Shown: positions 3,955 to 30,177 of the stretch, piece after piece
Position numbering within the stretch: position 1 is the stretch's first letter
Layout: each line of letters starts with the position of its first letter
Source: Paramacrobiotus metropolitanus
Lineage: Eukaryota; Tardigrada; Eutardigrada; Parachela; Macrobiotidae
DNA: 64,000 nucleotides
Reading direction: 5' to 3'
Assembly: GCF_019649055.1 (NCBI RefSeq)
Contig: NW_026570221.1
Span: 2,790,001 to 2,854,000, forward strand
Translations under genes and position numbers: made by a program
The notes under the pieces: generated by a model
Told to the model about the DNA's origin: nothing
Databases searched by the model: none
The model's input: only the letters and a program-made list of their open reading frames with translations

Positions 3955-3971
3955 CGACCCTATTGGGGTCG
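3955..3971. repeat. Conserved-loop hairpin
   Basis: CGACCC-TATTG-GGGTCG: six perfect stem pairs around the family loop. It lies in the 3' region, close to the 3' LTR. Confidence 0.75.
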
Positions 3972-4801
3972 GTGGCTGCGCCTCGGGGGTGTCCGATGGC
4001 GAAGGTCTCTCGGTGCCGCGTTCTCCTCCGGACCCGTGGTGGCGATACAACTCACGGCCGAAATCCGAAGGTCGGTCGGTGGTATTGTTGGACCGGTGTA
4101 GGCATCTGTTGGTTGTGTCCGTAACGGCGAAAAAGTAAAAAAATAAAGTATTATTCCATTTCTCTCTCTCTAGTAAAAATAACATCACAATTCCTGGTGA
4201 GCAGGTTAGTGAAAAGATCAATAAAATTGAGAACATCATTTCGAGATTAGAAAAGTAAACTCAAAGTCTTTGGTCCGGGGCTTTGGTCCGGGTGCTCATT
4301 CCGACTAGAGCTGATCCGCTCACGGGGGCTCCAGTCCACAGGATATCCGGCCATCTAGGTCCGAGGCATCGGTTCTCGGGATACCCAGTGGTACCGGTTC
4401 ATTCACCGAGGGTCGGAGGTTCGACCCTCGAGGGTCAAAGGTTCGACCCTATCAGCTTCAAGTAAAGGGTATGGATCTCCATTGCCGGGTGTGAAACGGG
4501 CGTGAAACACACTTTCCGACCGGAATCCTCCGGTAAAAGCTTGATTCGAACCATCAGAGCCGGTCTGCGAGTCATGTCTTTGCGCTGGCACGAGCCACGT
4601 CTGGCCATCGGCATCTATGCTGAATCCGGCTGAGGTTCATCGGGTAAAGTTGATGGAGAGGCACTGTCGCATTCGCGAGTACTGTGAGGTACCCTCTCTG
4701 GGTGCAGGATAGGACCTATTGGGTCTATTGATCGGTGAACCCTCCGGGGAAGTCCGGTGATCCGAGATTTGACGCGGGCAAAAACCGTAATATTGCATCC
4801 T

Positions 4802-4818
4802 GTCGCCTATTGGGCAAC
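4802..4818. repeat. Conserved-loop hairpin
   Basis: GTcGCC-TATTG-GGCaAC: three inner and two outer pairs around a C/A mismatch. It is in the first of the tandem units. Confidence 0.7.
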
Positions 4819-4865
4819 AAGGACCGGTTGAATGCCTGGTCTCCATAGGGTTAAATGGTCGATGG

Positions 4866-4902
4866 ACGTGGTTTACACTGCACTGTGCAGTGTAAACCAC
4901 GT
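4866..4902. repeat. Perfect palindrome, 18-bp arms, 1-nt centre
   Basis: ACGTGGTTTACACTGCAC, then T, then its exact reverse complement. It lies in the 3' untranslated region of the retrotransposon. It does not contain the TATTG loop, so it is separate from the hairpin family. Confidence 0.85.
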
Positions 4903-5160
4903 TCTGGTTTGAATAATGGCATGGCCTCTGTGCGGGAGTCCGACCCTATATCCGGTTGGCTTCAAGGTTTTGAATTCCGATGGTAGGCTCGGTGACCGAG
5001 GTCAGCTCCGGTTGTGAAATCAGAGTCCAAGCTCAGCCTCGGTTGCTGAGTCTAAGTCCATTGGCAGCCTCGGTACTCGAGTTAGAGTCCGGGTTGTACC
5101 CTCGGCTGCGCTGGCAATTGGATACGGTGATGTTCCGCTCGGCTGAAAATCCTAAATTCG

Positions 5161-5190
5161 TCTCCTGTCACCTATTGGGTAACTCGGAGA
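5161..5190. repeat. Conserved-loop hairpin, extended stem
   Basis: Inner stem GTcACC/GGTaAC around TATTG, with an outer TCTCC/GGAGA stem. The same architecture recurs at 5626-5655. Confidence 0.75.
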
Positions 5191-5341
5191 GAATAGTCGC
5201 CGGGGTTCGAAGGGTCCGAGCCTGAGGGTCGGAGGTTCAACCCTCGAGGGTCGGAGATTCCAAGCCTCGGCTGTGCTGGTAAGTCACAGTTCCGCGATAT
5301 GCTGGGTGTTCCGTCCGGTTGAAATCCCTAGTTCATCCGTG

Positions 5342-5358
5342 GTTATCTATTGGATAAC
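5342..5358. repeat. Conserved-loop hairpin, compensatory variant
   Basis: GTTATC-TATTG-GATAAC: six perfect pairs. Relative to sister units, both sides of two pairs have changed together, so pairing is kept. Confidence 0.8.
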
Positions 5359-5470
5359 TCGGAAAGGGTGGATTGCGGACTTGAAGGTTGAGATCCGAGG
5401 GTCGGGGGTTCCAAACCTCGGTATCCGAAGGTCTGATGGTCGTTCCATCTCGGCAAAAACCCTTGTTAAC

Positions 5471-5500
5471 GGTGTAGGTCGCCTATTGGGCAACTCTACC
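5471..5500. repeat. Conserved-loop hairpin, extended stem
   Basis: GTcGCC/GGCaAC around TATTG, with an outer GTAG/CTAC extension that differs from the TCTCC/GGAGA extension in neighbouring units but also pairs. Confidence 0.75.
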
Positions 5501-5625
5501 GAGGGTCTTACCGGTAAGGTAAAATTGCTGCCTCGGGTGTCCGGGGTAGCCTCGGTGGTGAGGTAGTCAGCATCCGTTAAGGCTGGTCCGAAGGCATTCT
5601 GCCCGGGCAAAAATCTTTTTTAACG

Positions 5626-5655
5626 TCTCCCGTCACCTATTGGGTAACATGGAGA
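5626..5655. repeat. Conserved-loop hairpin, extended stem
   Basis: Outer TCTCC/GGAGA and inner GTcACC/GGTaAC around TATTG. Confidence 0.75.
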
Positions 5656-5740
5656 GGGTCGATGCCTCTTGACAGGGTCCGAACGAGTATCCGAGGGTTA
5701 ATCAGCCTCGGTGTCCGGGAGTCTGAGCCTCGGTAACGAG

Positions 5741-5770
5741 ACTGGCCCAACATGCTCTGGTGGGAGTCCG
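5741..5770 (-). repeat. Internal copy of the LTR/PPT-junction sequence
   Basis: GACTGGCCCAACATG followed by CTCTGG-x-GGGAGTCCG repeats the junction at 3871-3906, where the 3' LTR meets internal sequence. A third, shorter copy of the internal half is at about 4921-4944. These look like relics of junction duplication. Confidence 0.6.
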
Positions 5771-5977
5771 CTTGATGCTGGAAATGTCCACCGGGTGACT
5801 AGCAGAAAATCATGCAAGGAGAGGCTCCCCGACAGCTATATAAGACCTAATTGGGTCAAAGCTGCGAGGTAGACACTCTAAGTTTTAAAGACGGAGTCCA
5901 AGCTGGTCCGTTCCTCAGCTGATCCCGTGCTTCCACTTAGGCGGAAACACCCGGGATGCCGGAATATGGGGGCTAAA

Positions 5978-5990
5978 GGCCTATTGGGCC
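5978..5990. repeat. Conserved-loop hairpin
   Basis: GGCC-TATTG-GGCC. A related member with loop TAATTG and stem GACC/GGTC is at 5844-5857. Confidence 0.65.
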
Positions 5991-6002
5991 TGTTTGGTGT
6001 AG

Positions 6003-6494
6003 TTATGGACGTCCGTAGCCTCCTTCTGGGCGTGCCCGTTTGTCGTGCTCGCGCTGGGCCTTAGCGATCCGTCGGTCAGCTGCCGCTATTTCTCGGCAGT
6101 CATCCTCGCGCTCCTGCTCCCGTCGTTGTTCACGGGCATGGACCAATCGGGCGTTATCCGGGACTGCTGGGGTGTTATCCCAGCCGGGCTCGTGGGTACG
6201 TCTGCGGTAACGTTGCATGTCCCACATGTAGAGCAGTTGCCGACCGTCCAACTCGTCAAGGATGCGTCTGTTGTGGACGGCGTGCATGTAGGCACTCAGG
6301 TTCCCGGTGACGACCTGGACGTACAGGGCATTGGCCTGGTCCCGTCGTGTGACTCTGTGATCCCCGGCTTGTCTGTCCAAGTGTCGTAACAGGCATTCTG
6401 CACAAGGTTGGCGTGTCCGAGGAGAGTTGTTATTGGCCTTGCACGCCTGGCAATCCGGGTCGTAGGCTTCTGTTCGGGGCTGGGAAGGCTGTGG
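6003..6494 (-). CDS. C4 zinc-finger ORF, last ORF of the retrotransposon
   Basis: An open frame of 163 codons that begins just after a TGA at 6495-6497 and has no clear ATG, so it may be expressed by splicing or frameshifting from upstream. Its N-terminal third has two paired-cysteine knuckles, DPDCQAC and CAEC, separated by 12 residues (CX2C-X12-CX2C), which fits a small zinc finger. The rest is helical and very rich in Arg, Glu and Asp (for example HAREQRREQEREDD), likely an RNA- or DNA-binding or coiled segment. I do not recognise a named family. Confidence 0.5.
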   Translation of the reverse strand, partial: PQPSQPRTEAYDPDCQACKANNNSPRTRQPCAECLLRHLDRQAGDHRVTRRDQANALYVQVVTGNLSAYMHAVHNRRILDELDGRQLLYMWDMQRYRRRTHEPGWDNTPAVPDNARLVHAREQRREQEREDDCREIAAADRRIAKAQREHDKRARPEGGYGRP

Positions 6495-6558
6495 TCAAAA
6501 CACTTAACTTAATATTGTTAAGTTATTTTTGTTTTTAAACCTTTTGGGTTATTACGTA

Positions 6559-6571
6559 AACCTATTGGGTT
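6559..6571. repeat. Conserved-loop hairpin
   Basis: AACC-TATTG-GGTT, between two coding blocks. A second loop variant (AACC-TTTTG-GGTT) lies just to its left near 6538-6550. Confidence 0.65.
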
Positions 6572-6637
6572 AAACGTTCTATGGTTAGATGTAAGCTTAA
6601 ACGGTCGGGTACGGTCAGGTCTTATCCGCTCCTTTTC

Positions 6638-6661
6638 TTTCTCGCCTATTGGGCAAGAGAA
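6638..6661. repeat. Conserved-loop hairpin, extended stem
   Basis: TTTCTC and GAGAAA form an outer stem around GCC-TATTG-GGC. Another member follows at 6689-6705 (CTcGCC/GGCaAG). Confidence 0.7.
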
Positions 6662-6729
6662 ACATCCGCGTTACGGAGGTTATAAGGTCTCGCCTATTGG
6701 GCAAGGATTCTCCGATGATGTACTTCCGT

Positions 6730-8175
6730 TTAGCTCTTCTTCTTCGGCAGGTCAGCAGGGTTAGTTGACTTGGCCCGTGCCAACCGCTTCTGGGCTTCCG
6801 TTTCGGCCGAAGTAGGGGCTTTCACCGGGCTCGCCGAGCTTGCCCGCGTCTTAGGCAGGTGTTGTCCGAAGTCTTCAGGTAGATAGAAGACGGAGAAACG
6901 CTGCCCGTGGATCTTGTAAACCTCACTCGATCCGAGGACTTTCTGTCGGCAGGCTTGCTCCAGGACGTACTCCAGCTCATCGGCCAGGTAGTATAGGTTG
7001 GTTTCCTTTCGTCGGACCGGTCGGTACCGTGCGTCTTCCAGTTGAGGGTAAGCGGACATCAGGATGAACTCGAACCGACCTATTAGGTGGATCAGAATCT
7101 CCCGGCGAGTTAATCCTTCCGGCTGTCGATCCGTCCGCAGGCAGGCGATCACCGCATCACGCCATCCAAGGTAAGTCTTCGGCGCGGGGTCTTGTTCTTC
7201 CCTCGGAAAGACGTAGTACGGTCGTTCCGTTTTGGTATATACCCGGAGGATGGCACCAGTCTCGTATGCCATCCGACAGTAGATCTTCACCCTGTCCAGG
7301 CTAAGGTCATACCAGCTTCCATCCTTGTCGACGCGCCAATGCTTCAGCAGCTGGTAAGCCATCTCCGGGGTTGCGTACGTTGGGCCCGACCAAGACAGCG
7401 CCTTGAGTGCAGCATGTACATGCACCCATCCAGGGTCGGTGTCGGAGACCCGAGGCTTCGGCTTAGATGCCCGCATGGTTGCCGGCTGTTTTGGCCGGGG
7501 AAGCCGGATAATAGGCTTCGATGGGATCTCCCGAGGCAGGACTTGCGCTGTGTCTTCGTGCCACTTCATAAGTAGCTGGTCGGCCGGGGGGCTCGGGGTC
7601 TTTTGGTCGAAAAAGCCCGAGGCTTGTTGTCCGGAGGGGACTGTCGGTCTTGTATCCTCCATTGGATCGTCCGGGTCATCTGCCGGAGGTTGATCCTGGT
7701 TGTCAGTCTCATCTTCTGGCTCTGGGTGTTCGGGTGCCGCTGTTGGCGGCTGCCCTTTGCCATCTTCGTTATCATCATCATCGCCATCCGAGTCGTCGGA
7801 TTTGTCAGAGTCTTGGTCTGACTTGGCGTCCTTGTCATCATCATCCTCCGAAGAGGGTTTTTCCTCCTCCTCGAGGGACTGAGCATTCCGCGAAGTCCTA
7901 CCCTTGTTCTTGCGCTTCTTAGTCAAGGACTGGCCCCTTGTTGAGGTTCCAGCCTGCGAAGTCGACAAGTCCATGGGTGACGGGGGTTGGGATCCCGGAG
8001 GGGCTGAATGTGTGTCCTTGACGAATTTACCCCTTCTGTCTCGGGTCGAATGCTTAATAGGTTTACTGCCGGAGTCTTGGTCGGCTGAAGCAGACCTTTG
8101 CAAGCCACCCGGGGCCCTTGGTCGTTCCGGAGGAAATCTGCTACCCGAGGAGGCCGCTGTTGATCTGGCCAGCAC
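6730..8175 (-). CDS. Chromatin-like accessory protein: acidic tract plus two winged-helix-like domains
   Basis: About 480 codons on the element strand; the listed start is a GTG, so the true N-terminus is unclear and may fuse to the upstream ORF. The N-terminal 90 residues are basic and Ser/Pro-rich. A long Asp/Glu/Ser tract follows at about 105-160, of the kind seen in histone-binding proteins. Two tandem alpha/beta blocks come next: WVHVHAALKAL...YYVFP (about 250-325) and WRDAVIACLR...RFSVFYLPEDFG (about 340-440). Both end with the helix then beta-hairpin typical of winged helices, and the second resembles a linker-histone (H15) fold with an insertion. The tail is Lys/Ala/Pro-rich. Fold calls come from pattern only. 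Confidence 0.55.
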   Translation of the reverse strand: MLARSTAASSGSRFPPERPRAPGGLQRSASADQDSGSKPIKHSTRDRRGKFVKDTHSAPPGSQPPSPMDLSTSQAGTSTRGQSLTKKRKNKGRTSRNAQSLEEEEKPSSEDDDDKDAKSDQDSDKSDDSDGDDDDNEDGKGQPPTAAPEHPEPEDETDNQDQPPADDPDDPMEDTRPTVPSGQQASGFFDQKTPSPPADQLLMKWHEDTAQVLPREIPSKPIIRLPRPKQPATMRASKPKPRVSDTDPGWVHVHAALKALSWSGPTYATPEMAYQLLKHWRVDKDGSWYDLSLDRVKIYCRMAYETGAILRVYTKTERPYYVFPREEQDPAPKTYLGWRDAVIACLRTDRQPEGLTRREILIHLIGRFEFILMSAYPQLEDARYRPVRRKETNLYYLADELEYVLEQACRQKVLGSSEVYKIHGQRFSVFYLPEDFGQHLPKTRASSASPVKAPTSAETEAQKRLARAKSTNPADLPKKKS

Positions 8176-8294
8176 CAGCCATATTCTGGCCTGGGGCGCA
8201 GGGTCCTCCGCCGGTCTGACCTGAGTATCCGCTCCTTCCGGTCATAGGTCTTTGCATGGATACACGACATCCGAAGCTTCTGTTGTCTCCGGGT

Positions 8295-9074
8295 CTATTC
8301 AGGAATGAAATTCGGCACGGTGTACCGGAGATGACGTCCTCGCTGCGCGTTGGTGGTCTGCAGCTCTCGACGTTCCACCATTGCCTTGAGGATGGGGTTC
8401 ACATTCTTCATAATGTCCTCAATCTCGGCTTCCCCTTTGGGTGTATCGCCGTAGGTATACATTTTGTTGAGGAACCGAGCTATCTGGAGACGGGTGGAAC
8501 CTCTTGGGTTCCGATAGTAGCCAATGGCTCGGACTATCCGTTCTTCGGGCGTCTCCTGCTGGTCTAGCTTACTCGGTGGTTTCGGGAACACTAATTCACC
8601 CATTCGATCCCAGGATCGATGGAGTACCAAGGCTAGGCACTCATTCTGGATCCAAGTGACTATCTTCCTCATAAGTTGTGCTGTGAGGAAGTTTCCTTCT
8701 TTCACCTCATATTCCTCGTTGAGTTTCTCTACCAATGCCTGGTAGACGTCTTTCCTATCCATATCGGCTTTGGCGATAATGCGCCGGACATCCTCTTTGA
8801 AGATTGCTTTGGGGAAAGTTGGCTCCGGCTCCGAGGGTTGTCGGTCCGGCAACCTGTTTCGAAGGTTATCCGGGGCCGGTAGGTCGGACTCATCGGTATC
8901 GGCGTGGTAATCCCACATCTCGACTTGGGGACCCTCGGCTAGATGTTTGGCCGAGCCTGGTTCCAGTTGGTCCGATTCGTTGAGCTTCCGCTTAACTGAA
9001 GTATCCTCCATTTGGATCTCCGGGGATGCCGAGCGTTCTAAGTCCCGGTCCCTTTGCTGGATGTTGTCAACCAT
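8295..9074 (-). CDS. DEK_C-like plus linker-histone-like accessory protein
   Basis: 259 residues with a genuine ATG that overlaps the preceding ORF's stop (ATGgtTGA). A segment at about 91-145 beginning DVRRIIAKADMDRKDVYQAL matches the DEK C-terminal domain pattern (helix, ADL/ADM, Val helix, Leu-rich helix). Residues about 175-255 match the globular H1/H5 domain pattern: EERIVRAIGYYRNPRGST, then the LNKMY helix, then VNPILKAMVERRELQTTN and a final beta-hairpin (RHLRYTVPNF). Both folds occur in host chromatin and DNA-binding proteins. A retroelement carrying them is unexpected; I infer nucleic acid compaction or chromatin docking. The assignments are by eye and need profile searches. Confidence 0.6.
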   Translation of the reverse strand: MVDNIQQRDRDLERSASPEIQMEDTSVKRKLNESDQLEPGSAKHLAEGPQVEMWDYHADTDESDLPAPDNLRNRLPDRQPSEPEPTFPKAIFKEDVRRIIAKADMDRKDVYQALVEKLNEEYEVKEGNFLTAQLMRKIVTWIQNECLALVLHRSWDRMGELVFPKPPSKLDQQETPEERIVRAIGYYRNPRGSTRLQIARFLNKMYTYGDTPKGEAEIEDIMKNVNPILKAMVERRELQTTNAQRGRHLRYTVPNFIPE

Positions 9075-9555
9075 CCGCTGGAGATATGGTGGAAGCGAGG
9101 AGTCTCCTTGCGGCTCCTTTTTCTCCTTCTTGACCTTGGGTGCCTCTTTTGGAGGCTTCTCCTCGGCCCAGTTTCGGATCTCGTTGATCCAACTCGATGC
9201 TCTGGCCGGGTTTCAACTCAGGCCTAGGCCCCCGATTCTTGTCGGGTTCCTGTCGGCTTGATGTTGACTCTGGTTCGCTATCCGAGGATGGTTGCTCGGG
9301 TCGGACCTTCCTTCGGCCCTTGTTACGGCGAACTTCTACGTCCGAGACATCAGTATCTCCGCCGCCGCGAGGTTTCTTAGGCAGTCGGTTCGGAGACTCC
9401 TTCTTTGAGGTCGACTTCTTAGCCTCGCGCTTCTTCCGTGCGGTTGTGAAGTTGGCCGAATGGACCACTGAGCCGCTAAATGCCGGCATTTCCTCATCCT
9501 CGATCTCCACTGATGGCTGCCGTTTAGGGTCAACCATCCTTTTTGACGGGACCAC
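9067..9555 (-). CDS. Basic, disordered accessory ORF
   Basis: 162 codons rich in Lys, Arg, Ser and Glu (ARKKREAKKSTSKKES, VRRNKGRRKVRPEQ), without a recognisable fold. The frame is also open upstream of the listed start, and it overlaps the 3' end of the 739-codon ORF in another frame. I therefore think it is the natural continuation of that protein after a frame change near 9.6 kb. Its stop codon overlaps the ATG of the next ORF by 8 nt, a geometry known from termination-reinitiation in other viruses and retroelements. Confidence 0.5.
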   Translation of the reverse strand: MVPSKRMVDPKRQPSVEIEDEEMPAFSGSVVHSANFTTARKKREAKKSTSKKESPNRLPKKPRGGGDTDVSDVEVRRNKGRRKVRPEQPSSDSEPESTSSRQEPDKNRGPRPELKPGQSIELDQRDPKLGRGEASKRGTQGQEGEKGAARRLLASTISPADG

Positions 9556-11555
9556 AGAAACCTTTTGGGGTACCGTGGCTTGCGAGGCTTCTTGTCCGCT
9601 AATTGGGGAAGGTGCGATGGGTGCGGCGCCGGAATTTCTCCGGAGGCTCGCTTCTTCCGATAGTCGTCGCCCATCTGCTGCACGATCTCCCTCATCCGTT
9701 GGGTCAGGTTATGGTACTCACGGATGGTTTCGTTGGAGTCGTTGTCGGGCAGGTTATCGCGGCGACTCTTAAGGGCGTTATAATAGTTACGCTCCGCGCT
9801 CGCGGCCCTATTATTGCAGTCATCCCTTTCGGTCATGGTCAGGTCCTTTATGGAGTCCATGGCCGGGTCGTCATGGTACTGGCGGTGGGTCTGGTTACTA
9901 ACCGCGGGCCCTGATTGGGGCTGCACAGCCGGTTGTACCTGACTTTCGACCGTCACTTCGGCGGCTATGTCCGGCACCGAGGTTGACATCGATGCGGTGC
10001 TGCCCGGCTCTTTTGCCGCTATCTGCAGTTTTGCCGGAGATGAAGTGTCCATCCGTTCTTGGGAGGCTTGCCGAGGGGTCCGTTTCGGAGAAAACCTCGG
10101 TGGCGGAGGCTGGAGAGGGGTCATACTGGGCATCCGGTTCGGCTTAGACAGAGCCCTAGTTGGGGACACCTGTTTCACCGGGGACCTGCTTCGTCCACTA
10201 GTTGACCGAGGCTCAGTCGAGAGCCTTGATGTTGACCGAAGGTCGTTTAACAGGGCTTGTTGCCACTGTCGTTCCTCTTCGCTATCCTCCGCGCCGTAAA
10301 CGTTAGGGTCATCATCATTACCTCCCGAGTTGTCGGGTTCAGTTTCACGGATGAGGTCGATCTTGGGCTGGCCTTCCTCCAGGGGTGGTTCGCGGATGTA
10401 TACGGCCGGGTTGATCCTCGGGTTCCGTAACAGCTGGACATAGTCCAAAACTACCCTCGGTAACATCTGTGTCCGAAGTACCTGCATACCGCTACGGAGG
10501 GCCATAAGTCTTCGTATGTTAGTATCACGGTCGGTCGCAAAGTCCAAGATCTTCTGGGTTATGCGGTTCCGATCTCTTGACGACATCTTATGTTCGAGCT
10601 GTCCGCCGGAAAGTTCTCCTTCTTGGATGATCCGGTAAAACTCGGCCTGCTTAATCTGGTCTACCAGCTGGTTGTGGTAAGCCAAGGCTTCCCGTTCCGT
10701 TGCGGTTAAATCCGGTTGGATGGCCTGTAGTACTAACTGAGGCTGGGGGGCCGTCTTGTGGCTCTCACCAGGCGTCGGTCGTACCTTCTGACGGGGCTTC
10801 GATGGGTCTGAAGCCGTTTCCCGCATCACAATCTCTCGGACCTGTTCGAGGGTCCGGACTTGTCTCGGTGGTGATGAGAACAGCTTCCGTTTCGGGCCTT
10901 TGTCCTCATCCCTGTCCTTAGACCGAGGCTTCCTCGCGAACTTAGGCGAATCTGGGCCTCCGGGCTGATGAATAGCCCTACCATCCGGGGTTCTCTCCGG
11001 GTTATCGGACTGTTCTGTCGGACGTCGGATGACGAGCACCTGTTCCGTTCGTTTTGGCCGAGCCGAACCGCCTATTGGGGGTACCGGCAATGTCGTTGGC
11101 CTCGATGCCTTACTTGTGCTCGGTGGGTCCGGGGTTAAGTCCCGTGTCAGAGCATAAGCTTCTCGTTCTGCCGTGGTGGGCTCAAGATTCTGCTCTTCAC
11201 CTTCTAAGGGTGGAACGTCCATTGGTTCACCGGGTTGCGTAGCTGGTCCTGCGGGTGGTTTAGCCTTTTGGGCTTTACGCTCCGCAGCTTCACGTCGCTT
11301 GTTACGGTAGTAACCTTCGGTGATCCGCTTAATGTCTTGCAGCGCCTGTATCAAGGTCTCCTCGGTATCCGAAGATCTCGCTGCCGATAGGGTAAGTATG
11401 GTGGCAATGGTCTTTCGGTTCGTATCCAAGGTATTGGTGTCGACGTCGAGCCTTGCCGCCCTAGAGTCCCAGGCGTTCATGGCATGCAATTGGGCATGCA
11501 TCTCGTGGCTGGCATCACCGGCTCGCTGAAGTGCTCGCCGAATCGTTTCCTCCAT
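9336..11555 (-). CDS. Large helical and Pro-rich accessory protein
   Basis: 739 codons beginning at an ATG. It has three helical charged blocks separated by Pro/Ser/Thr/Gln-rich linkers: about 1-85 (MEETIRRALQRAGDASHEM...), about 285-390 (ATEREALAYHNQLVDQ...RVVLDYVQLLRNP) and about 590-670 (TERDDCNNRAASAERNYY...). It resembles the helical blocks of the neighbouring ORFs at 11.8-14.4 kb, so it is probably part of one long repeat protein. The last 75 residues, past about 9.6 kb, have low-quality composition and are likely out of the natural frame. No enzymatic motif is visible. Confidence 0.5.
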   Translation of the reverse strand: MEETIRRALQRAGDASHEMHAQLHAMNAWDSRAARLDVDTNTLDTNRKTIATILTLSAARSSDTEETLIQALQDIKRITEGYYRNKRREAAERKAQKAKPPAGPATQPGEPMDVPPLEGEEQNLEPTTAEREAYALTRDLTPDPPSTSKASRPTTLPVPPIGGSARPKRTEQVLVIRRPTEQSDNPERTPDGRAIHQPGGPDSPKFARKPRSKDRDEDKGPKRKLFSSPPRQVRTLEQVREIVMRETASDPSKPRQKVRPTPGESHKTAPQPQLVLQAIQPDLTATEREALAYHNQLVDQIKQAEFYRIIQEGELSGGQLEHKMSSRDRNRITQKILDFATDRDTNIRRLMALRSGMQVLRTQMLPRVVLDYVQLLRNPRINPAVYIREPPLEEGQPKIDLIRETEPDNSGGNDDDPNVYGAEDSEEERQWQQALLNDLRSTSRLSTEPRSTSGRSRSPVKQVSPTRALSKPNRMPSMTPLQPPPPRFSPKRTPRQASQERMDTSSPAKLQIAAKEPGSTASMSTSVPDIAAEVTVESQVQPAVQPQSGPAVSNQTHRQYHDDPAMDSIKDLTMTERDDCNNRAASAERNYYNALKSRRDNLPDNDSNETIREYHNLTQRMREIVQQMGDDYRKKRASGEIPAPHPSHLPQLADKKPRKPRYPKRFLWSRQKGWLTLNGSHQWRSRMRKCRHLAAQWSIRPTSQPHGRSARLRSRPQRRSLRTDCLRNLAAAEILMSRT

Positions 11556-13288: not shown

Positions 13289-13747
13289 TGGCTCGGTCGT
13301 ACGCCTGGCGGGTGGCGGGGCTTGGTTGTTGCCCTTGCGGTCCGGCTCCCTCGGTTAGGTTGAAGGCCGCTATCTGTTGGTCCACATAGGCCACCGCGCC
13401 TTCCAGGAGCCATCTGTCACGGACGTCTGCTGGAATTCTGTCGTGGCTGAGACGCTCAATTTCACCGAGCTTCAATTGGATCTCGATGTTGAGTTTCTCA
13501 GTTTCCGCCCATTGTTCCGAGTTAAAAGGGTATCGGTCTCGGCGCCGACGTAGTTCCGTTAGGAGTACGAGTCCTTGTTGCCGAGTTCTGCGGATAGCCA
13601 CAAACGCGGATAGGCTACGTCACGTGGGGTCGGTGATGCCGGGTTTTGGTTATCATCGATGATCCTACGCAGGTTCCGGAATGCTTGCCGGGACTGCTGA
13701 ATCTGCTGCGGGGAGAAGTTAGTAACTTCAGTTGACCGTCGGAGCAT
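13266..13747 (-). CDS. Fragments of the helical-repeat protein in two frames
   Basis: Two short open frames, 13559-13747 and 13266-13601, overlap by about 43 bases. Both encode the same sort of charged helices as their neighbours (SPQQIQQSRQAFRNLRRI; NIEIQLKLGEIERLSH). They look like consecutive parts of one protein broken by single-base indels, in the element copy or in the assembly. Confidence 0.4.
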
Positions 13748-13754
13748 GTAGGAA

Positions 13755-20476: not shown

Positions 20477-20633
20477 TTGTTCTCAACGAACACGGGCTGT
20501 CGGTCTTCGTCCTTATCCTCGGTATGGAGCTGAAGACGATTGACGGTTGGGCCTGTAGCTACTGGCTTCGGCCTCCGTACCCGTTTCCATGGGTTATAGA
20601 CGGTCTTCTCGGACTTAGTCTGTCGTACCGAGG

Positions 20634-22577: not shown

Positions 22578-22679
22578 TTCGACCGGGATTAGAGTTGTCG
22601 TTGATCCGCCGGGGACACTATTGGTGTTAACACGCGGCGGTGATGAAATTCTATCCGACCTCGGTGGGTCTACTCCGTC

Positions 22680-23589
22680 TTATGGGTAGCCATCCGAGGG
22701 TTGATGTGGACTTAGTCGTTCTGCCGGAGCTGGTAAGCCTGGTGAAACCTCATTGACCGAGTTGTGCACCTCCGAACGGTTCGCGACGCCTTCCATCAGT
22801 GCTTCGGCGGTTTCTACCGGGTATATCCGGCTTGCTATCCGTTCTTCCATGGATGGTTGACCTTCTCGTAAAGTTGAGAGGTTATATTGCATGTTGAAGA
22901 ACGTCCGCGATCCGGTTACAGTTCGTGCCGGTTGTCGCTGGAAGAGGTCCGCTTCCTGCTGCAGACAGTAGGCGGGTACCTGTGCCTCCAAAAGTACTGC
23001 TTCCTAGTCTTCGAAGTACTCCGTTACTTCGTCGGTCGGAGCCTCCGGCCGTCTACCTGGTTGGCCTACCAAGGACGGTTCAGGCGTCATTCTGGCGTCC
23101 TGTGAAGTTGCGGGTCGGCGTCCCGATTCTCCGCTTAGCCCGTGGCTCGTAATGCCTAATTGGGCACTGAGCCGTCCGGGCAGGCTGGTGACGTTTCTCG
23201 TCCCGGCTGGTCGGGTCCGGTTTCTCCGGGCGACATCCCCGGCTTCACCTTCTGGGCCTGGGGGTCCGGGCACATTCTGTGTCCCGGCTGCCGATCGGAT
23301 CCAAGTTCCTTGGCCGATCCTCCCAGGTACCTGTTCTGGTCCGGGAGCCGCAATTATCGGCGTGGCGAGGTTCGGGTCGATTCTCCGAGTATCCGAACCG
23401 GGGATGTTCGGCGCCTAGTTGGGCTGCCGTCCCCGCCGCTAAGATTCTAGCGGACTCGCTGACCGTTGCGGAGGCTAAGTCCTCGTTGAGGTTCCAAGTT
23501 GTGTCCAAAGGGTTATTCCGGTTAGTGGGGTTATCCTTATCCGGTGGTTTTGTTGGATGGCAGAGGTCGGATGAGTCACCGGAGCTCAT
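22680..23589 (-). CDS. Gag-protease spacer coding region, interrupted
   Basis: Three pieces. One ORF with ATG at 23589, 5 nt after the Gag stop (TAAGGTCGATG), runs to 23245. A second frame, 23273-23004, follows after a frame change. The second frame continues after a single TAG (23004-23006) to 22680, and after a TAA continues in the same frame into the protease. The encoded sequence is hydrophilic, Pro/Arg/Glu-rich, without a known domain. I read it as a linker of the Gag-Pol polyprotein whose frame is disrupted in this copy. Confidence 0.45.
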
Positions 23590-23594
23590 CGACC

Positions 23595-25196
23595 TTAGGC
23601 GTTTCCCTGGGATGTACCCGGGACAGGCCCGCCAACTGCCGGTTGGTATCCGCCCGAGCCCCTATTGGGGGCCGGGGACGGCGGCAGTTGCGGCCGTTGG
23701 GCTGGTGGTGGGGTTGCCAATGGGGGTCGGCCACCGTTCTGGGGGTTCCCTCCATTTCCCTGGCCAGGCTGCCGGTTGGGGCTGCCTTGGCCGCCGAATC
23801 CGCCGGCATTCTGCTGACGGGGGCGCGGGGGTGGTACGATGTTCGGGTAGTTCTGATTCGCCGAACCTAACGGCCATCCGTTATCGTACCGGTACCTCCA
23901 GTCCAGGTACCATCTCCGGTTTGGGTTGTCTTCCAGCCGGAGGTTGGCATAGCCACAACTCGCTTGGTTGTGGTTGCCCCATAGGCAATGGCTACAGGAA
24001 AATGTTCCGTCCTGGGTCCACTGAAAGAACTTAGCTTCCATCCGGTCAACGTAGGTTGCCTGCTGGCGAGCCTCCTGCTGTGGTGTCCGGGGCTGCCGTT
24101 GCACGTTCTGAGGCTGGCCGCCTCCACCCGCGCGGCTGCCGAAGTTTCCGCGGCCGCGATTCCCGCCGCCACGTCTTCCGCCGGGGCCGCCATATTGTGA
24201 GGCTCCGCCGCGTCCGTATCCACCTCCGAAGCCGTACCCCTGGTTCTGAGGTTGGCCGTAGCCGGAGTTCTGGCCGTAGCCCTGTTGGGGCTGGCCATAG
24301 CCGGGGCTCCGAGGTTGGCTGTAGCCCTGTTGGGGCTGGCCATAGCCGGAGTAACCCTGGCTCTGTGGTTGGCCGTAGCCGGGGCTCCGAGGCTGATTCG
24401 GTTGGCCGCTGTTCCCGTAGGCTGGCGGCGTGACCATGGTCCCTGTTGGGGCTCCATTCAGGTTCATCGCCGCCATTGCTGCCCAAGTCTGTTCGATCTG
24501 ACCACGGGCCTGAGGGGGTGGTGTCGCCGGGGGGCTCTGTCGGTGAAGCCCCAGTTGCACATTCTGGTAACCTGGCGAGTTGGGTTGTATGTATCCGGGG
24601 GCCGGCTGAGTCACGGGAACGGGCGTCGCCGTCCTGACGGTGATGTAGTTGGTGGAGTTGCCACCTTTAACTACCTGGTACATCGGCTTTCCCCGGGTGA
24701 AGTCCCGTACGTAGTCCCGGAACTCCCGCGTCGTCTTCGGCATCCGGACGTCCAGAGCTGCCCGAAGAATTGGCTCCGTGACATTCGTCCGCAGGTAGAA
24801 GACTGCCAGTTCATCGGTGAGGTTGCCTCGTTGCTTGAGGTTGATGATGGCGTCATAGTACTGCTCGGGGGTCTCTTGCCCCAGCATGTACTTTCTGGTA
24901 GTGATGTCCGCGACTGCCGTAACCTGCCTGTCTGGGTCCATGAACCGGGCCGCAAATTGCTGCAGCCAGTATTCCACGGGCCACCCATTTTCGGGTTCCA
25001 AGCCGGACTGGTTCTGGTACCAATCCAAGGCTTGTCCTGTGAGGGCGCCTTCCAGCTCCGTCATAAACGCGACGCTCGTCATTCCGACGTCGTCTTCCTC
25101 CTGACGGTAGATTCGCCAGATTTTAGTGATCCAGCCGTCCACCTTAGCCCCGTCGCCGTTGAACTTCGGCAACTCCGCTCGGTTCTTTCGAGCCAT
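23595..25196 (-). CDS. gag: Gag-like nucleocapsid polyprotein with CCHC knuckle
   Basis: 533 codons from ATG, with 29 further open codons upstream up to the ORF1 stop. Residues about 1-190 are a helical capsid-like domain typical of retrotransposon Gag (WITKIWRIYRQEEDD, ALTGQALDWYQ, RFMDPDRQ, NLTDELAVFYLRTNV). A Gly/Tyr/Gln/Pro-rich low-complexity region of GYGQPQ repeats (about 270-340) looks prion-like. An RGG-rich stretch follows, then a perfect zinc knuckle, CSHCLWGNHNQASC (C-X2-C-X4-H-X4-C, about 400-413), for RNA binding. The C-terminus is Pro/Gly/Asn-rich. Expected role: particle assembly and genome packaging in the cytoplasm. Confidence 0.88.
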   Translation of the reverse strand: MARKNRAELPKFNGDGAKVDGWITKIWRIYRQEEDDVGMTSVAFMTELEGALTGQALDWYQNQSGLEPENGWPVEYWLQQFAARFMDPDRQVTAVADITTRKYMLGQETPEQYYDAIINLKQRGNLTDELAVFYLRTNVTEPILRAALDVRMPKTTREFRDYVRDFTRGKPMYQVVKGGNSTNYITVRTATPVPVTQPAPGYIQPNSPGYQNVQLGLHRQSPPATPPPQARGQIEQTWAAMAAMNLNGAPTGTMVTPPAYGNSGQPNQPRSPGYGQPQSQGYSGYGQPQQGYSQPRSPGYGQPQQGYGQNSGYGQPQNQGYGFGGGYGRGGASQYGGPGGRRGGGNRGRGNFGSRAGGGGQPQNVQRQPRTPQQEARQQATYVDRMEAKFFQWTQDGTFSCSHCLWGNHNQASCGYANLRLEDNPNRRWYLDWRYRYDNGWPLGSANQNYPNIVPPPRPRQQNAGGFGGQGSPNRQPGQGNGGNPQNGGRPPLATPPPAQRPQLPPSPAPNRGSGGYQPAVGGPVPGTSQGNA

Positions 25197-25271
25197 GATC
25201 CGGTTCGTCCGCTCTTCGTAGCGGCGCCGACCCTCCTCATAGCCTTCTAGCCGGGCTTGAACAATATCTTT

Positions 25272-25287
25272 GTGCCTGTTGGGCTAC
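25272..25287 (-). promoter_or_regulatory. In-frame TAG with overlapping hairpin between ORF1 and Gag
   Basis: The ORF1 stop TAG (25284-25286) is in the same frame as Gag, with 29 open codons between it and the Gag ATG. The stop is embedded in a member of the hairpin family: the RNA-sense reading is GTA-GCC-CAACA-GGC-AC, where the TAG overlaps the 5' stem. The layout resembles stop-codon readthrough as known in gammaretroviruses, but a simple nonsense mutation is possible. Confidence 0.55.
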
Positions 25288-28200
25288 CGGGGGTTCCAAG
25301 CCAATGGGTAGGCCGCTTGATGGTTTTGCGCAGCCGGGGCGGGTTGAGGTGGGTTCGGTTGTGGTTGAGGATGCGGGTTGCCAAGGGGTGCCGGTTGTTG
25401 CGGCTGTCCCGGCCCGGGCGGAGGATTCTGCGCTCCGTGCCCCTGGTTCGGTGGGAGATTCGGTGCCACATACCCGGGGATCCTCTGGAGGACTCGGTTT
25501 TGATCGAGCCACATCCCTGGTGGTATAACCACGTATTGGTCAGCCTGAGGCACCGGACCTGTTGGGTCCATGTTGCCTTGCTGAGGCTGATGAGGGACAT
25601 TGCCGGGGCCAACCAGACCTATTGGGTCACGGTTATCTGACCGAGGCTGCTGTGGTCCATTATCTGGATAGCCGGGGCGTACCGGGTCAGCCCAATTGCG
25701 CTGCCCTGCCGATACGGGTTGTACTTCGATCCTCGGCGGGTACGTGTTCTGGGAGCCTGAGCGTTGTCGGTCCCGGTTGGAATTCCCCGAATTGGGTTGT
25801 GAGCTTGCCGCCGAAGCGTTCGCCGGCGGTCTAAGTCCCATGCCAGGTCCGGTTGCCGGGGCTCGAGGGTTCGAGCCTCGGGCGAAGTCTTGTCCGGTTG
25901 AGGTTGATGCCACGGGCCTGGTTCCGGTTGAGAACATCGTCGTTGTGGATGTTCCTCCGTAGGCCGTAGTTGTTGTAGTGGTGGAATGGGTCGGTACGTT
26001 GGGAGTGGCCGTCGAAGTGTTTCGCTCCGGCTCCGGGGCTGACGGTACCACCGGCGCCCTTGGTACGGGTCCTACCGATGGTTCAGCCCTAAGCATCCCG
26101 ACCTGATAAGTCTGTTCCGCGAGAGCCCCCGTTTGACCTGTTGGGTTCAGCAGGGGGTTATCTCGACGCAGGTAGTCATCGATCTGCTGACATTTATCCT
26201 GCTCTTGGGTAGTCCGGTAGGACGGGGGTTGCTCGGTCATGGAGTCCTCGAGGTATGTCTTCTCTTCCTTCAGGCATGCGACCTCGATGCCCAGGTTTTC
26301 TCGTTCCTGGAACATCTGGTTGTACTTATCACCCAGGTCGTTGTATCGGTTAGATAGGTCGACGCCGAAGTTGTAGAGCTCCTGTTGGTACTTCAGGAGA
26401 CGGTCCTTGTCCATCTCCCATTGGGTCTTCTCGGACTCAAGCTGTGTGATCCGGGCTCGTTGAGCCTCGATGACTGCGAGGTTCTCGATACGAGCCTGTT
26501 CGAACCGGGCTGTCTCGTTCTGGAGATGGGTGGTGAGGGCAAGAATCTGCTGGCCGAGTTGGGCCTGGCATAGCCGAAGGTCTACGGCCACACCCTCTGG
26601 GTCGTTTTGGTTTTGCCGGAGGTTCTCATAGGCTGTCCGGAGGAAGTCAAGTTCCGTCTGGAGCTCGTCGATCTCTCCCTCCAGGCCGATAATGCCCTGT
26701 TTGAGGTGGTGGTTCTCCTCACGGTATTCGTCAACTCGGCTGAACATGTTTTGAAGTTCGGCCGAGCCAGCCTCGGAGTAGCCGAGGGCCTGTAACCGCT
26801 GCTCCAAGTCTTCGCGCAGGGTGGCCACTTCGGCCCGAGACTGCTCCAGCATGTCCTGGAGTCTGGTGACTTCAGCTTGGTCATGACGGCAGGGCTCCTC
26901 AGTTGCTTGCAACTGGGCCTCTAACCGTTCGATCTCCTGGGTGAGGTCATCGATGACAGTGTTCGCACGTTCCCGTTCATCAGTGAGCCTCTTGCGCTCC
27001 TGCTTGTGCGAAGCAACCGTCTGGGACAGAACATTCTCCGTCGATTCGACAATGTTTTGCCCGGCCAAGAGCTGATTTTGCAGCTCGTAAATCCGTTGAC
27101 GGAGGACCTGTGGGTTGTCGATCTTCTCCGGAGGGGTCTTTGTCAGGTACCGCCGAGGTGTATAGTCCGAGGCTCCGGTATGCGAGCCTGGGTACTGCTT
27201 CGGTGACGGAAACCTGAAGCCCTTTCTGCTGTCCGGACGCTCGGTCACCTTATTGGGTAACACGGTCGCGTCGAACACGTCCTCAGTCGGTGATGGAGTC
27301 TTGTCAGCCCCGAGGCCCAAGGGTTCGAACATCGGGGGTGTGGCCGGGAGGTCCGAGGTCGGCTTTGCAACCTTCGATGAAGCCGATTTCGACTTACGAT
27401 CAGCCTGTGAGGCTTCAATCCGGCTGGCTCGGGTCAGCGTAGGTTCACTGCCGGGGGTTTTGGGTTTCGGGGATGACGGTCCGCCAGCCGAGGTTAAGTT
27501 AACCTCGGTAACCGAACCCTCAACCTCGTCTACGGAGGTTGCAACCGACGAAATCCGGAATTTGACCGGGGAAACAGCTTTCTTAGCCGAGGGAGTGGAG
27601 GTTGCCGACCGGGTCTTGGGTGTTCCAACCTGTTGGGTCGGAGTCCGGACCCCGGTGTTAGGGGTCCGAGCCTCGGTATCCGAGGCTCGAGCCTCGGTAT
27701 TCGAGGTTCCAACCGACTGCAACCTTCCCGTTGAGGATTTTGAAGTCCCCGAGGTCGGCTTCGATAAGTTCGAAGTCCGAGTTGGGGTCCCGGTGAGGGT
27801 CCTCGGGTCCGGTGTGGTCGCCTTCGGAGTCCCCGAGGGTCGTTTTGGGTCCGGCGACGTCGATTTCCGGCTGTTGTCCGAAGATTTTGGCTTGTTGCCT
27901 GTTGGTTTAGGGCTTTGAGCCAGGGTCGATGGGGACTTAGTCGGTGAACCCGCCTTGTGGGTCACCCCCCGGGTCGGTGATGCCGTACCCTTCATCTGGC
28001 TCGGGCTCATCTGGCCTTGCCTCGGTTTCGGTCCAGCCATGCCGCCCTGTTGGGGCTGCACAGGGTCACCCATGTCTGGTGACGCCTCGGAGCTACTTAG
28101 CGCCGGGCTCGAGGCTCCATGGTCCGGGGTGATGGCCGGGAAGAAGACTGGCGAGGCACCTATTGGGTGCACAAGTCCAGCCGCAGGCTCGGAGTTCGCG

Positions 28201-28511
28201 TTTCGACCTATTGGGCCGTGCAGAACCTCCGGTTCAGCCTGTGGTAGCTCGAGGAACGTCCGGTTGTGTGCGTCCTCGAAGCTATCCTCCGGCGATTGGG
28301 TAAAGTCGTTCGCCAGGATCCGCGCATCTCGCTTCTCCTTGGCCGACTTGGTCGACTGGTTCGACTTGCCGGACTTGTTCGATCGATTGGAGTAAGACGA
28401 GTGAGGCTCACTACCCGGGCCGGCATGGCGGAAGGTGTACCCGCCTGCGTTGTCCCTTCGGGCGTAGCCTTGATCGAACTTCCGTTCGTATGGGTTCTCT
28501 CGACCGGACAT
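25284..28511 (-). CDS. ORF1: long coiled-coil protein upstream of Gag
   Basis: 1075 codons from an ATG at 28511. Residues 1 to about 465 are disordered, rich in Ser, Thr, Pro and Lys, with short degenerate repeats (TPNTGVRTP, ASDTEARTP). Residues about 467-757 form a long, near-continuous coiled coil with heptads (LRQRIYELQNQLLAGQ, IDDLTQEIERLEAQLQA, GEIDELQTELDFLRTAYENL). The last 300 residues are rich in Pro, Gln, Asn and Thr. It has no enzymatic motif. The position before Gag and the shared frame suggest an extended Gag matrix or assembly region. Several conserved-loop hairpins lie inside. It looks intact over its full length. Confidence 0.75.
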   Translation of the reverse strand: MSGRENPYERKFDQGYARRDNAGGYTFRHAGPGSEPHSSYSNRSNKSGKSNQSTKSAKEKRDARILANDFTQSPEDSFEDAHNRTFLELPQAEPEVLHGPIGRNANSEPAAGLVHPIGASPVFFPAITPDHGASSPALSSSEASPDMGDPVQPQQGGMAGPKPRQGQMSPSQMKGTASPTRGVTHKAGSPTKSPSTLAQSPKPTGNKPKSSDNSRKSTSPDPKRPSGTPKATTPDPRTLTGTPTRTSNLSKPTSGTSKSSTGRLQSVGTSNTEARASDTEARTPNTGVRTPTQQVGTPKTRSATSTPSAKKAVSPVKFRISSVATSVDEVEGSVTEVNLTSAGGPSSPKPKTPGSEPTLTRASRIEASQADRKSKSASSKVAKPTSDLPATPPMFEPLGLGADKTPSPTEDVFDATVLPNKVTERPDSRKGFRFPSPKQYPGSHTGASDYTPRRYLTKTPPEKIDNPQVLRQRIYELQNQLLAGQNIVESTENVLSQTVASHKQERKRLTDERERANTVIDDLTQEIERLEAQLQATEEPCRHDQAEVTRLQDMLEQSRAEVATLREDLEQRLQALGYSEAGSAELQNMFSRVDEYREENHHLKQGIIGLEGEIDELQTELDFLRTAYENLRQNQNDPEGVAVDLRLCQAQLGQQILALTTHLQNETARFEQARIENLAVIEAQRARITQLESEKTQWEMDKDRLLKYQQELYNFGVDLSNRYNDLGDKYNQMFQERENLGIEVACLKEEKTYLEDSMTEQPPSYRTTQEQDKCQQIDDYLRRDNPLLNPTGQTGALAEQTYQVGMLRAEPSVGPVPRAPVVPSAPEPERNTSTATPNVPTHSTTTTTTAYGGTSTTTMFSTGTRPVASTSTGQDFARGSNPRAPATGPGMGLRPPANASAASSQPNSGNSNRDRQRSGSQNTYPPRIEVQPVSAGQRNWADPVRPGYPDNGPQQPRSDNRDPIGLVGPGNVPHQPQQGNMDPTGPVPQADQYVVIPPGMWLDQNRVLQRIPGYVAPNLPPNQGHGAQNPPPGPGQPQQPAPLGNPHPQPQPNPPQPAPAAQNHQAAYPLAWNPR
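25555..25569. repeat. Conserved-loop hairpin inside ORF1
   Basis: GGACC-TGTTG-GGTCC: five perfect pairs. A sister copy 61 bases away at 25616-25628 has GACC-TATTG-GGTC. Confidence 0.7.
27244..27261. repeat. Conserved-loop hairpin inside ORF1
   Basis: GTcACC-TTATTG-GGTaAC, read as Leu-Pro-Asn-Lys-Val in ORF1, with the same stem as hairpins in the 3' untranslated units. Confidence 0.65.
28156..28170. repeat. Conserved-loop hairpin inside ORF1
   Basis: GCACC-TATTG-GGTGC: five perfect pairs, near the ORF1 start. Confidence 0.7.
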
Positions 28512-29712
28512 CTTCGGCTCTATTGGAGCCTTGAAGTAGCCTCCGGGTTGACCCTTCAGCCAAGAAGTCAGACTATCCCTATTTGGGACTTGTCCGAAGT
28601 TGATGAGGCTTTTCGCCTGTTGAAGGTCCGAGGGTCCGGAGGGGGGGCAGAGGTCCGGTGGTGTGTGGGGTGATGGTGTAGGTGTGCTTGTACTACTTGC
28701 AACTCAGTACTGTTGTCAATACAGGGTACAGCTTACGTACGTCCTATACTACAGCACTGACCGCTATGACGTCACACACCACTAAGTGGTCTTGCAGATT
28801 ATCGCCTACGTCACGATTCTGCGCGCCGCGCGCAAAATTCCAAAAAACTATGAGTCACTACGGGCCTATAGCATAGGGAATCTCCCCGCTATCCTGATTG
28901 GTTAATTATTATAATGTAAAATCGGCCGTCGTGACGTCACAATTATTTAAATTTTTGAATTAGTTAATTTCCGAGATGGAAAAATTCGGAAAAATCGCAG
29001 AAAAATCAGCAAAATTAATTTTACCGACCAAAAATTATTTTAGCCGGGGGAAAGTTATTCCCTTAATTTTCCGTAAATTCAGAAAGGTTGTTAGCCGAGG
29101 CTCAGAGGGTCTACACAGAGGCTCGAGGGTCCGGCCTAGTAAGGCTAGCTAACCCTATTTTTACCCTAAATAGATGTTTTTAAGCCCGTTTTTTCGGGTA
29201 AAAATAAGTTTTAGCCGGCCAAAACTACTTTTGGTCCGGTGAAAAGGAAAGTTGCCCGGCTATATCGGGTTTCTAGAGGCTCTACAAGGTTTACCGAGGG
29301 TCAGTCGACCCTTTTTACCGGGTAAATCCGAGTGAATCCGCTTGGAGATCCGGTGAATCCCGCGCTGTTAAAGTTGCGGGTGCTACTTAAGGCAAAGGCG
29401 ACCCCGATTGATGAGGCTGCGAGGGTCCGCTGGGTCCGTGCCGTCCGTTCCGTCCGGGGATCCGCGGTAACCGCTTATCAACCCGGGCAAAGTCCGTCCG
29501 AGGGTTGTTGCCGCGAGGAACGTTCCGTCCACGCGCAAGAAGAGGGTTCGCCGAGGCTTTCTACCCGCAAAAGAGAGAAGAGAGACCAGACCGTTCTGGC
29601 TGGCGGCGATCAGATGGGGATAGGACCCGTTGGTTCTCCCCTGTCTTCACGTCGGCCGTTACGGATGCAATTCTACACCGTCTCTCAGAACTTCCGTGAG
29701 AAGGAAAACACA
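28512..29712 (-). other. Leader (5' untranslated region) of the retrotransposon
   Basis: About 1.2 kb between PBS and the ORF1 start without a sizeable ORF on the coding strand. It is AT-rich in its middle part and contains two members of the conserved-loop hairpin family close to the ORF1 start (28516-28530 and 28577-28588). A leader this long is the expected place for a main packaging or dimerisation signal or an internal ribosome entry region; nothing proves either. Confidence 0.55.
28516..28530. repeat. Conserved-loop hairpin directly upstream of the ORF1 start codon
   Basis: GGCTC-TATTG-GAGCC. The usual C-G closing pairs are replaced by T/A and C/G pairs that still match. On the element RNA it ends only 4 nt before the ORF1 AUG, so it could affect initiation. 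Confidence 0.75.
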
Positions 29713-30150: not shown

Positions 30151-30177
30151 TTCTGAATAAGCCTTAACCGTGTGCTG

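Follow-up and report, generated by a model that had tools for sequence, protein, structure and literature searches.

Why should a retrotransposon carry dozens of short hairpins with one fixed loop on ever-changing stems? The question is raised by a 64,000-nucleotide stretch of the tardigrade Paramacrobiotus metropolitanus (genome 169.8 Mb), positions 2,790,001 to 2,854,000 of contig NW_026570221.1, here called the window. It contains a giant Ty3/gypsy long terminal repeat (LTR) retrotransposon whose sense RNA repeats the motif CC-CAAYA-GG, with a CAAUA or CAACA loop, C-G closing pairs and a variable paired stem. The sequence comparisons below make it very probable that this motif is a sense-RNA recognition element under selection.

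A hairpin family in sense orientation

A preliminary description of this DNA reported about 40 hairpins with the loop TATTG or TGTTG and some variants, and the six places that it quoted (3955, 5342, 15019, 25555, 28156 and 28516) all match its account. Its pattern class has 40 matches on the plus strand of the window and 0 on the minus strand; 37 of them, for which only the closing pairs are required, lie within 3955-28525. Defined by at least four Watson-Crick pairs with internal G-U allowed, the hairpins number just 33, comprising 19 CAATA, 9 CAACA and 5 CAATTA loops. The family of sites stands, while the RNA loop has to be read differently: because the main open reading frames (ORFs) of the element are on the minus strand, it is CAAUA/CAACA and not UAUUG/UGUUG. 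As to the variants, TAATTG (sense CAATTA) holds with its five hairpins, whereas TCATTG (sense CAATGA; 1 of 2 sites, 3 bp) and TTATTG (sense CAATAA; 1 of 8 sites, 4 bp) are weak. The loop rule from the data is C-A-A-Y-A, with CAATTA and CAAAA as minor loops.

The leader has one of the 33 hairpins, the ORF block 19 (0.87 per kb) and the 3' noncoding region of 2.84 kb the other 13 (4.57 per kb). Those inside ORFs occupy all three frames, and CAACA loops are found in this copy only inside ORFs. Folding prediction in a 155-nt context gives 31 of the 33 a pair probability of at least 0.5; the weakly predicted ones, named like other sites below by loop position, are 25624 (0.16) and 6517 (0.38). A search of Rfam with window positions 3400-30200 returned nothing at gathering score and two sub-threshold matches (22 of 40 and 20.1 of 45 bits).

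The pairing is not a product of chance. Perfect stems of at least four pairs number 22 in sense and 0 in antisense orientation; dinucleotide shuffles yield a mean of 0.245 and a maximum of 2 (200 shuffles), bearing out the stem complementarity of the preliminary description. Over pairs 1-6 of all 40 CAATA sites, 137 of 240 cells are Watson-Crick (permutation mean 71.8, maximum 102; 20,000 permutations), and over pairs 3-6 of the 16 CAATA sites with CC/GG, 45 of 64 are (mean 18.3, maximum 35; 20,000 flank permutations). Out of 20,000 flank permutations, none reached the observed pairing of the 23 ORF-block CAATA sites and 2 reached that of the 59 CAACA sites. Weaker subsets are the 6 CAATA sites with CC/GG in the ORF block, reached by 51 permutations, and the 7 CAATTA sites, reached by 60; with 3329, the 3 CAATTA sites that have CC/GG are not significant.

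The loop is equally specific. When the 1024 pentaloops are ranked in the element by four-pair stems, CAATA is at the top with 12, followed by CAACA (6) and CAAAA (4), and the 19 anagrams of CAATA reach 5 of 348 sites. We also fetched the 3' region of 40 copies, a chosen sample of all copies (one scoring of candidates covered 40 of 142). There CAATA leads by far, with 245 of 548 CAATA words in hairpins and 30 for the next loop; the 33 antisense CAATA words include none with 2 pairs.

Stems covary and loops are conserved

Covariation across sites was measured on 27 window sites with CC-CAAYA-GG (23 distinct), chosen regardless of the outer stem. Of the cells, 84.1% pair, against 62.0% after shuffling, and the sites score 0.546 for covariation, against 0.162; no shuffle in 500 reached either value. 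Controls with slid partners stay at or below 0.181. Pair 3, for example, forms in 22 of the 23 distinct sites as A-U, C-G, G-C and one G-U. Compensatory change is also seen between copies. Several copies share double changes at 5352 (in pairs 2 and 4), 4812 (pair 3) and 28213 (pair 5) and, as read from raw copy strings, at 28525 (pair 5). The pair variants shared between copies number 19: four are double Watson-Crick changes, seven are single changes that keep pairing and eight are single changes that break it. Variants confined to a single copy include 30 broken pairs, 20 kept through a single change and 3 double changes, and this higher breakage is what would be expected of decaying insertions.

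Variation in the loop and closing pairs is about a quarter of that in the flanks. Non-modal bases have a frequency of 0.019 at loop positions, 0.014-0.016 at closing pairs, 0.054-0.057 at pairs 3-5 and 0.065-0.067 in flanks. Shared variants number 7 in 75 loop columns, five of them at the Y position, versus 363 in 1282 flank columns. Constraint is clear at ten noncoding sites (loop 0.016, flanks 0.072) and moderate at two CAACA sites of ORF1, the upstream accessory ORF (loop 0.025, flanks 0.045, closing pairs 0.004).

The reading frame leaves its own mark. All six frame-0 hairpins use CAACA, versus 3 of the 22 other CAATA/CAACA hairpins (Fisher p 2.2e-4) and 0 of 14 noncoding ones. CAATAG is absent from frame 0 because its TAG stop would close the ORF. 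The informative point is that hairpins in this frame persist, their loop carrying the single substitution that is also tolerated among copies.

Kept in two subfamilies and absent from a sister copy

Where they can be aligned, other copies mostly keep the hairpins, the opposite of what would count against the preliminary description. In the 3' region, nine of the 13 are alignable in 26-37 of the 40 copies with loop and stem mostly kept, and the six 5' sites examined are alignable in 26-29 of 29. There are exceptions: the hairpin at 5986 survives in only 17 of the 29 copies that align there, and the group of four at 6517-6699 is alignable in 0 or 1 of 40. The copies belong to two subfamilies, A1 (that of the window; 30 copies) with 4-16 and A2 (10 copies) with 8-15 hairpins each in about 3.5 kb. 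Between A1 and A2 many hairpins sit at non-alignable places, and the alignable ones are nearly all kept. No antisense hairpin was found in the 40 copies.

A sister copy on contig C25 provides the contrast. Its reverse transcriptase (RT) is 88% identical to that of the window element over 420 aa, the N-terminal 200 residues of its Gag are 47% identical to the window's Gag candidate, and its ORF1 is 33-44% identical in aligned stretches of at least 48 codons. This mosaic suggests recombination or very uneven rates. The sample is of one copy, 13,004 bases from four stretches that cover its 3' end in part; a fifth, L082, resembles no part of the window and, as it probably lies outside the element, was excluded. 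Of the 78 CAATA/CAACA/CAATTA words in these bases, none has at least 3 pairs; in the internal region of the window element, 37 of 106 do. At site 15139 the codons of the two elements align one to one, with no gap. The sister reads CCA CGT GGT where the window has CCA ACA GGT, and it also has the GACC and GGTC arms, around a CACGT loop. Since the alignment is gap-free and both arms are present, the hairpin here differs by loop substitution.

Elsewhere in the genome, exact searches with three stem classes found 76, 89 and 42 places versus 2, 1 and 0 for reversed patterns, and the outer letters are Watson-Crick in 70/76, 84/89 and 34/42 of them. No place of the three classes is on C25. With one flanking restriction, CCCAATAGG occurs 901 times versus 408 for its control. 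Among the 100 of 901 places listed, 77 are clustered (same strand, within 30 kb; one of them, C4:213478, counts as clustered only via the 30 kb rule) and 23 are isolated. Stems that form at both pair 3 and pair 4 are present at 70 of the 77 clustered places versus 5 of the 23 isolated ones; counted by distinct 17-mer, the clustered places among the 100 listed have them in 21 of 27. None of the 100 matches listed is within 30 kb of nine other-family RT loci on C1-C10, the nearest being at 30.7 kb. By eye, three other-family RT loci have a stem-class place within 30 kb. Near C138:81318 and C48:200743 it belongs to fetched copies of the window family (L009 and L048), and the one near C71:101801, at C71:117402, stands alone.

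The preliminary description proposed a repeated recognition element with its structure under selection, and four results support it: stems covary from site to site, copies differ by compensatory changes, the loop is conserved and the sister is free of hairpins where sampled.

What reads the hairpins

Sense-only orientation and favourable folding make RNA the likeliest level of action. We infer that the hairpins act as RNA and that one protein binds them multivalently, thanks to their number. The genomic sense RNA would display a few dozen short hairpins with one exposed CAAYA loop, read by loop and shape, so that the stem mainly needs to pair. The most likely reader on present sequence data is the Gag of the element, which would bind many sites at once. 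Its candidate, ORF 25196-23595, contains a GYGQ low-complexity stretch, an RGG stretch and a CCHC motif, and these sites would let it pick out, condense and package an RNA of unusual length. Two points put Gag first: an LTR element needs multivalent recognition of its RNA by Gag, and the sister, whose Gag N-terminus is so diverged, is without hairpins where sampled. The case is an argument of specificity and not a proof. The whole chain, from sense-RNA hairpins to many Gag-binding sites used for packaging, is possible and is put forward tentatively. With slightly more reserve still, the element may represent an LTR lineage with an element-wide, covarying array of hairpins resembling packaging signals, co-selected with coding down to the choice of CAACA in places where CAAUAG would be a stop.

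Several observations weigh against this interpretation. RGG and CCHC cannot alone explain the hairpins, because the hairpin-free sister's Gag has both. Retroviral packaging signals are usually near the 5' leader; here density peaks in the 3' noncoding region and the leader has one hairpin. Two ORF1 CAATA sites have no extra loop conservation (loop 0.031, flanks 0.033; closing pairs 0.017). Two of the five covariation measures equal the shuffles (pairs with both sides changed, 4 vs 4.0; further pair types, 14 vs 13.8). The eight shared pair-breaking variants include an alignment artefact at 28525, caused by a deletion in the window copy, and four at pairs 5-6 (5986, 5853 twice, 5642), leaving pair 3 at 5642, pair 3 at 5352 and pair 1 at 28165 nearer the loop. 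The wobble test of RNA against DNA is weak and its outcome mixed. G-U exceeds A-C by 24 to 7 for flanks found in at least two copies, by 27 to 20 for singletons and by 7 to 4 at 23 distinct sites, while the outermost pair of the three exact stem classes gives 8 to 11.

The reader could instead be a host RNA-binding protein that serves the export, stability, translation or localisation of the element RNA, or a restriction factor that is tolerated. There are precedents for host proteins that recognise a loop irrespective of stem sequence (Smaug recognition elements, SREs, PMC4053848; LIN41 tri-loops, PMC5908797), and dense 3' noncoding sites fit a role in mRNA regulation. On the other hand, stems form at few of the isolated CCCAATAGG places, so that no large host regulon with exactly this kind of hairpin is visible among the 100 listed, and the same host maintains a sister copy without hairpins in the 13 kb sampled. 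We regard a host reader as unlikely, though a serious contender.

It is less likely again that another protein of the element, ORF1 or an ORF downstream of the integrase, binds the hairpins for RNA transport, condensates or protection from silencing. There is room for such a protein, as nine of the eleven minus-strand ORFs have nothing above the Pfam cut-off, and ORF1 has diverged strongly from the sister while RT has not; yet Pfam recognised no RNA-binding domain in those ORFs.

Structure at the level of DNA, as a cruciform in the integrated copy or as hairpins in single-stranded cDNA during reverse transcription, appears improbable. Perfect stems can form in DNA too and the mixed wobble test leaves it some room, whereas the loop is oriented 40 to 0 in the window and is never antisense in the fetched copies. 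Stems of 4-6 bp are also short for cruciforms.

The preliminary description had offered a self-spreading palindromic micro-element as its alternative. Together with palindromes generated by template switching of the reverse transcriptase, this is disfavoured and seems very improbable. Some 3' sites do lie within local duplications, which reduce the 33 hairpins to 21 flank groups, and the sister's stem at 15139 indicates that a stem can precede its loop. However, the loop is constant and the stems are not, with 101 distinct stem+loop strings across the 40 copies; none of the other pentaloops, out of 1024, comes near; and the sister alignment at 15139, the one clearly comparable site, contains no insertion. 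Template switching should be a bias shared by a sister with so similar an RT, which has 0 CAAYA hairpins in 13 kb. A coding artefact of a repeated peptide such as PIG or PQQG has a negligible chance of explaining the family: several ORF sites do encode PIG/PTG or QQ, 24287 and 24332 lie within a tandem repeat and single CAACA sites may be chance, but the noncoding hairpins largely refute it, all three frames being used, 16 of 33 hairpins lying outside ORFs and ORF-block stems exceeding permutation for CAATA and CAACA alike.

As a separate observation on local multiplication, the copy at G000 C86:553427-553648 has three exact GGACC-CAATA-GGTCC hairpins in about 220 bp.

Relation to known systems

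Hairpins with a fixed loop on free stems are a known recognition strategy; their element-wide spread in an LTR retrotransposon appears, in the open-access literature searched, to be the new part. MS2 and other single-stranded RNA viruses have dispersed packaging stem-loops, in MS2 with the loop motif (x)xYA (PMC6281560). The array resembles these in its several dispersed stem-loops, shared loop motif and variable stems, and both (x)xYA and CAAYA end in YA, a likeness and not a sign of membership. It differs in having no bulged A in the motif and in its carrier, a retrotransposon RNA of about 26 kb versus an icosahedral phage. SREs consist of a CNGGN0-3 loop on a non-specific stem, and a title cited in PMC4053848 names multiple SREs in one ORF. 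A fixed loop, a non-specific stem and several sites per transcript are common to both; CAAYA in place of CNGGN0-3, and a mobile element in place of host gene regulation, set them apart. LIN41 response elements are shape-read hairpins in which compensatory stem mutations restore binding (PMC5908797). The hairpins described here are apparently shape-read as well, with five loop bases (six in CAATTA) where LIN41 elements have exactly three.

Among retroelements, the planarian Burro elements are giant and gypsy-like, with an internal region of up to 25 kb (PMC6431247). The window element is similar in its internal region of about 25 kb, gypsy pol and extra coding content. Burro has one huge ORF1 polyprotein and other domains, unlike the eleven separate ORFs of at least 200 aa here, and the excerpted description used for comparison mentions no hairpin family. 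In the open-access literature searched, with subscription papers mostly outside it, we found no LTR retrotransposon with dozens of dispersed fixed-loop hairpins.

If our interpretation is true, dispersed multi-site RNA recognition extends from single-stranded RNA viruses to LTR retroelements, and it offers an explanation for how a retroelement RNA of 26-27 kb is handled. If Gag is the reader, nature would here provide an evolvable system in which RNA is selected through many sites, and it raises the question of how very long retroelement RNAs are packaged. If a host protein is the reader, this would be a hairpin-binding specificity for which we found no known counterpart. The single loop motif and the compensatory stem changes make the system directly testable, and the sister family, in the same genome and hairpin-free where sampled, is a ready control.

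Architecture of the element

Features of the element are collected in the table.

Table. Features of the element, in window coordinates; hairpins are written in sense orientation as stem-loop-stem.
Feature	Position	Strand	Remarks
Giant Ty3/gypsy LTR retrotransposon	3459..30151	minus (sense)	about 26.7 kb; LTRs, ORFs, protease/RT/RNase H/integrase
5' LTR (sense)	29726..30151	minus	LTR repeat comparison; TGGTAGCAGATCC, resembling a primer-binding site, adjoins
3' LTR (sense)	3459..3885	minus	LTR repeat comparison
ORF1, upstream accessory	25284..28511	minus	1075 aa; Pfam matches all sub-threshold; hairpins 28213, 28165, 28052, 27635, 25624, 25564
Gag candidate	23595..25196	minus	533 aa; hairpins 24332, 24287, 23667
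Aspartyl protease ORF	20634..22577	minus	Pfam
RT, RNase H, integrase ORF	16562..20476	minus	Pfam
3' noncoding region	3886..6729	minus	13 hairpins; hairpin-dense
CGACCC-CAATA-GGGTCG	3955..3971	minus	exact 23-mer kept in 28/37 aligned copies
GACC-CAATA-GGTC	4711..4727	minus	AGGCC/GGCCT in one other copy
GTTGCC-CAATA-GGCGAC	4802..4818	minus	GTTACC/GGTGAC in other copies
GTTACC-CAATA-GGTGAC	5167..5183	minus	copy alignment
GTTATC-CAATA-GATAAC	5342..5358	minus	GTTACC/GGTAAC in other copies
GTTGCC-CAATA-GGCGAC	5478..5494	minus	copy alignment
GTTACC-CAATA-GGTGAC	5632..5648	minus	copy alignment
GACC-CAATTA-GGTC	5842..5859	minus	copy alignment
AGGCC-CAATA-GGCCT	5976..5992	minus	kept in 17/29 aligned copies
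Four hairpins, loops at 6517, 6567, 6651, 6699	6505..6705	minus	alignable in 0-1/40 other copies
GCCGC-CAACA-GCGGC	7735..7751	minus	in ORF
GCGACC-CAACA-GGTTGC	12063..12079	minus	frame 0
CAACCG-CAATTA-CGGTTG	14597..14614	minus	in ORF 15470-14433
CGGCCC-CAATA-GGGCCG	15018..15034	minus	in ORF
GACC-CAACA-GGTC	15129..15145	minus	sister: different loop codon, no insertion
TTGCC-CAACA-GGCGA	20707..20723	minus	frame 0
AATCG-CAATTA-CGGTT	20879..20896	minus	protease ORF
GACCC-CAATTA-GGGTT	21230..21247	minus	protease ORF
ACAC-CAATA-GTGT	22613..22629	minus	inter-ORF
TGCC-CAATTA-GGCA	23151..23168	minus	inter-ORF
GGCCCC-CAATA-GGGGCT	23657..23673	minus	frame 2
Two hairpins AGCCC-CAACA-GGGCT	24277..24338	minus	frame 0; within tandem repeat
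Two ORF1 hairpins, loops at 25564, 25624	25554..25630	minus	25624 pair probability 0.16
CCGACC-CAACA-GGTTGG	27625..27641	minus	frame 0
GCCC-CAACA-GGGC	28042..28058	minus	frame 0
GCACC-CAATA-GGTGC	28155..28171	minus	copy alignment
CGGCC-CAATA-GGTCG	28203..28219	minus	TGACC/GGTCA in other copies
Leader hairpin GGCTC-CAATA-GAGCC	28515..28531	minus	AGCTC/GAGCT in other copies
Leader site, loop CAAATA here, CAATA in most other copies	28574..28591	minus	GTCCC/GGGAT stem; outside the 33

The internal region between the LTRs is 25,840 bp long. The LTRs begin with TG and end with CA, a TGG like that of a primer-binding site follows the 5' LTR, and the protease precedes RT, RNase H and integrase (Pfam), all as in Ty3/gypsy elements. 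Although the LTRs are identical at 423 of 427 positions, the bases flanking them (3440-3462 and 30145-30170) show no matching target-site duplication. ORFs of at least 200 aa within 3459-30151 number 15; the four on the plus strand overlap the eleven on the minus strand.

ORF1 is 90% identical over 60% of its length to a protein model (P0001) that the database calls 'tyrosine-protein phosphatase non-receptor type 23-like' and that is probably a mis-annotated transposon ORF. In the Gag candidate a GYGQPQQGY stretch, which we take to resemble FUS, and the RGG stretch that adjoins the CCHC motif could favour condensates. A 227-bp tandem duplication at 16378-16831 spans the end of the RT/integrase ORF, and the following ORF repeats the C-terminal part of that ORF. 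Immediately outside the 5' LTR are two arrays of TTTCGTTACGAAAACGAAAA-type repeats of about 36 nt, in inverted relative orientation and about 1 kb apart (30212-30380 and 31331-31493). The 3' noncoding region also contains a near-perfect palindrome of about 35 nt at 4867-4901, with its core exact in 9 of the 40 fetched copies, and further palindromic repeats such as GAGGGTCGGAGGTTCGACCCTC interspersed among the hairpins at 4407-5269.

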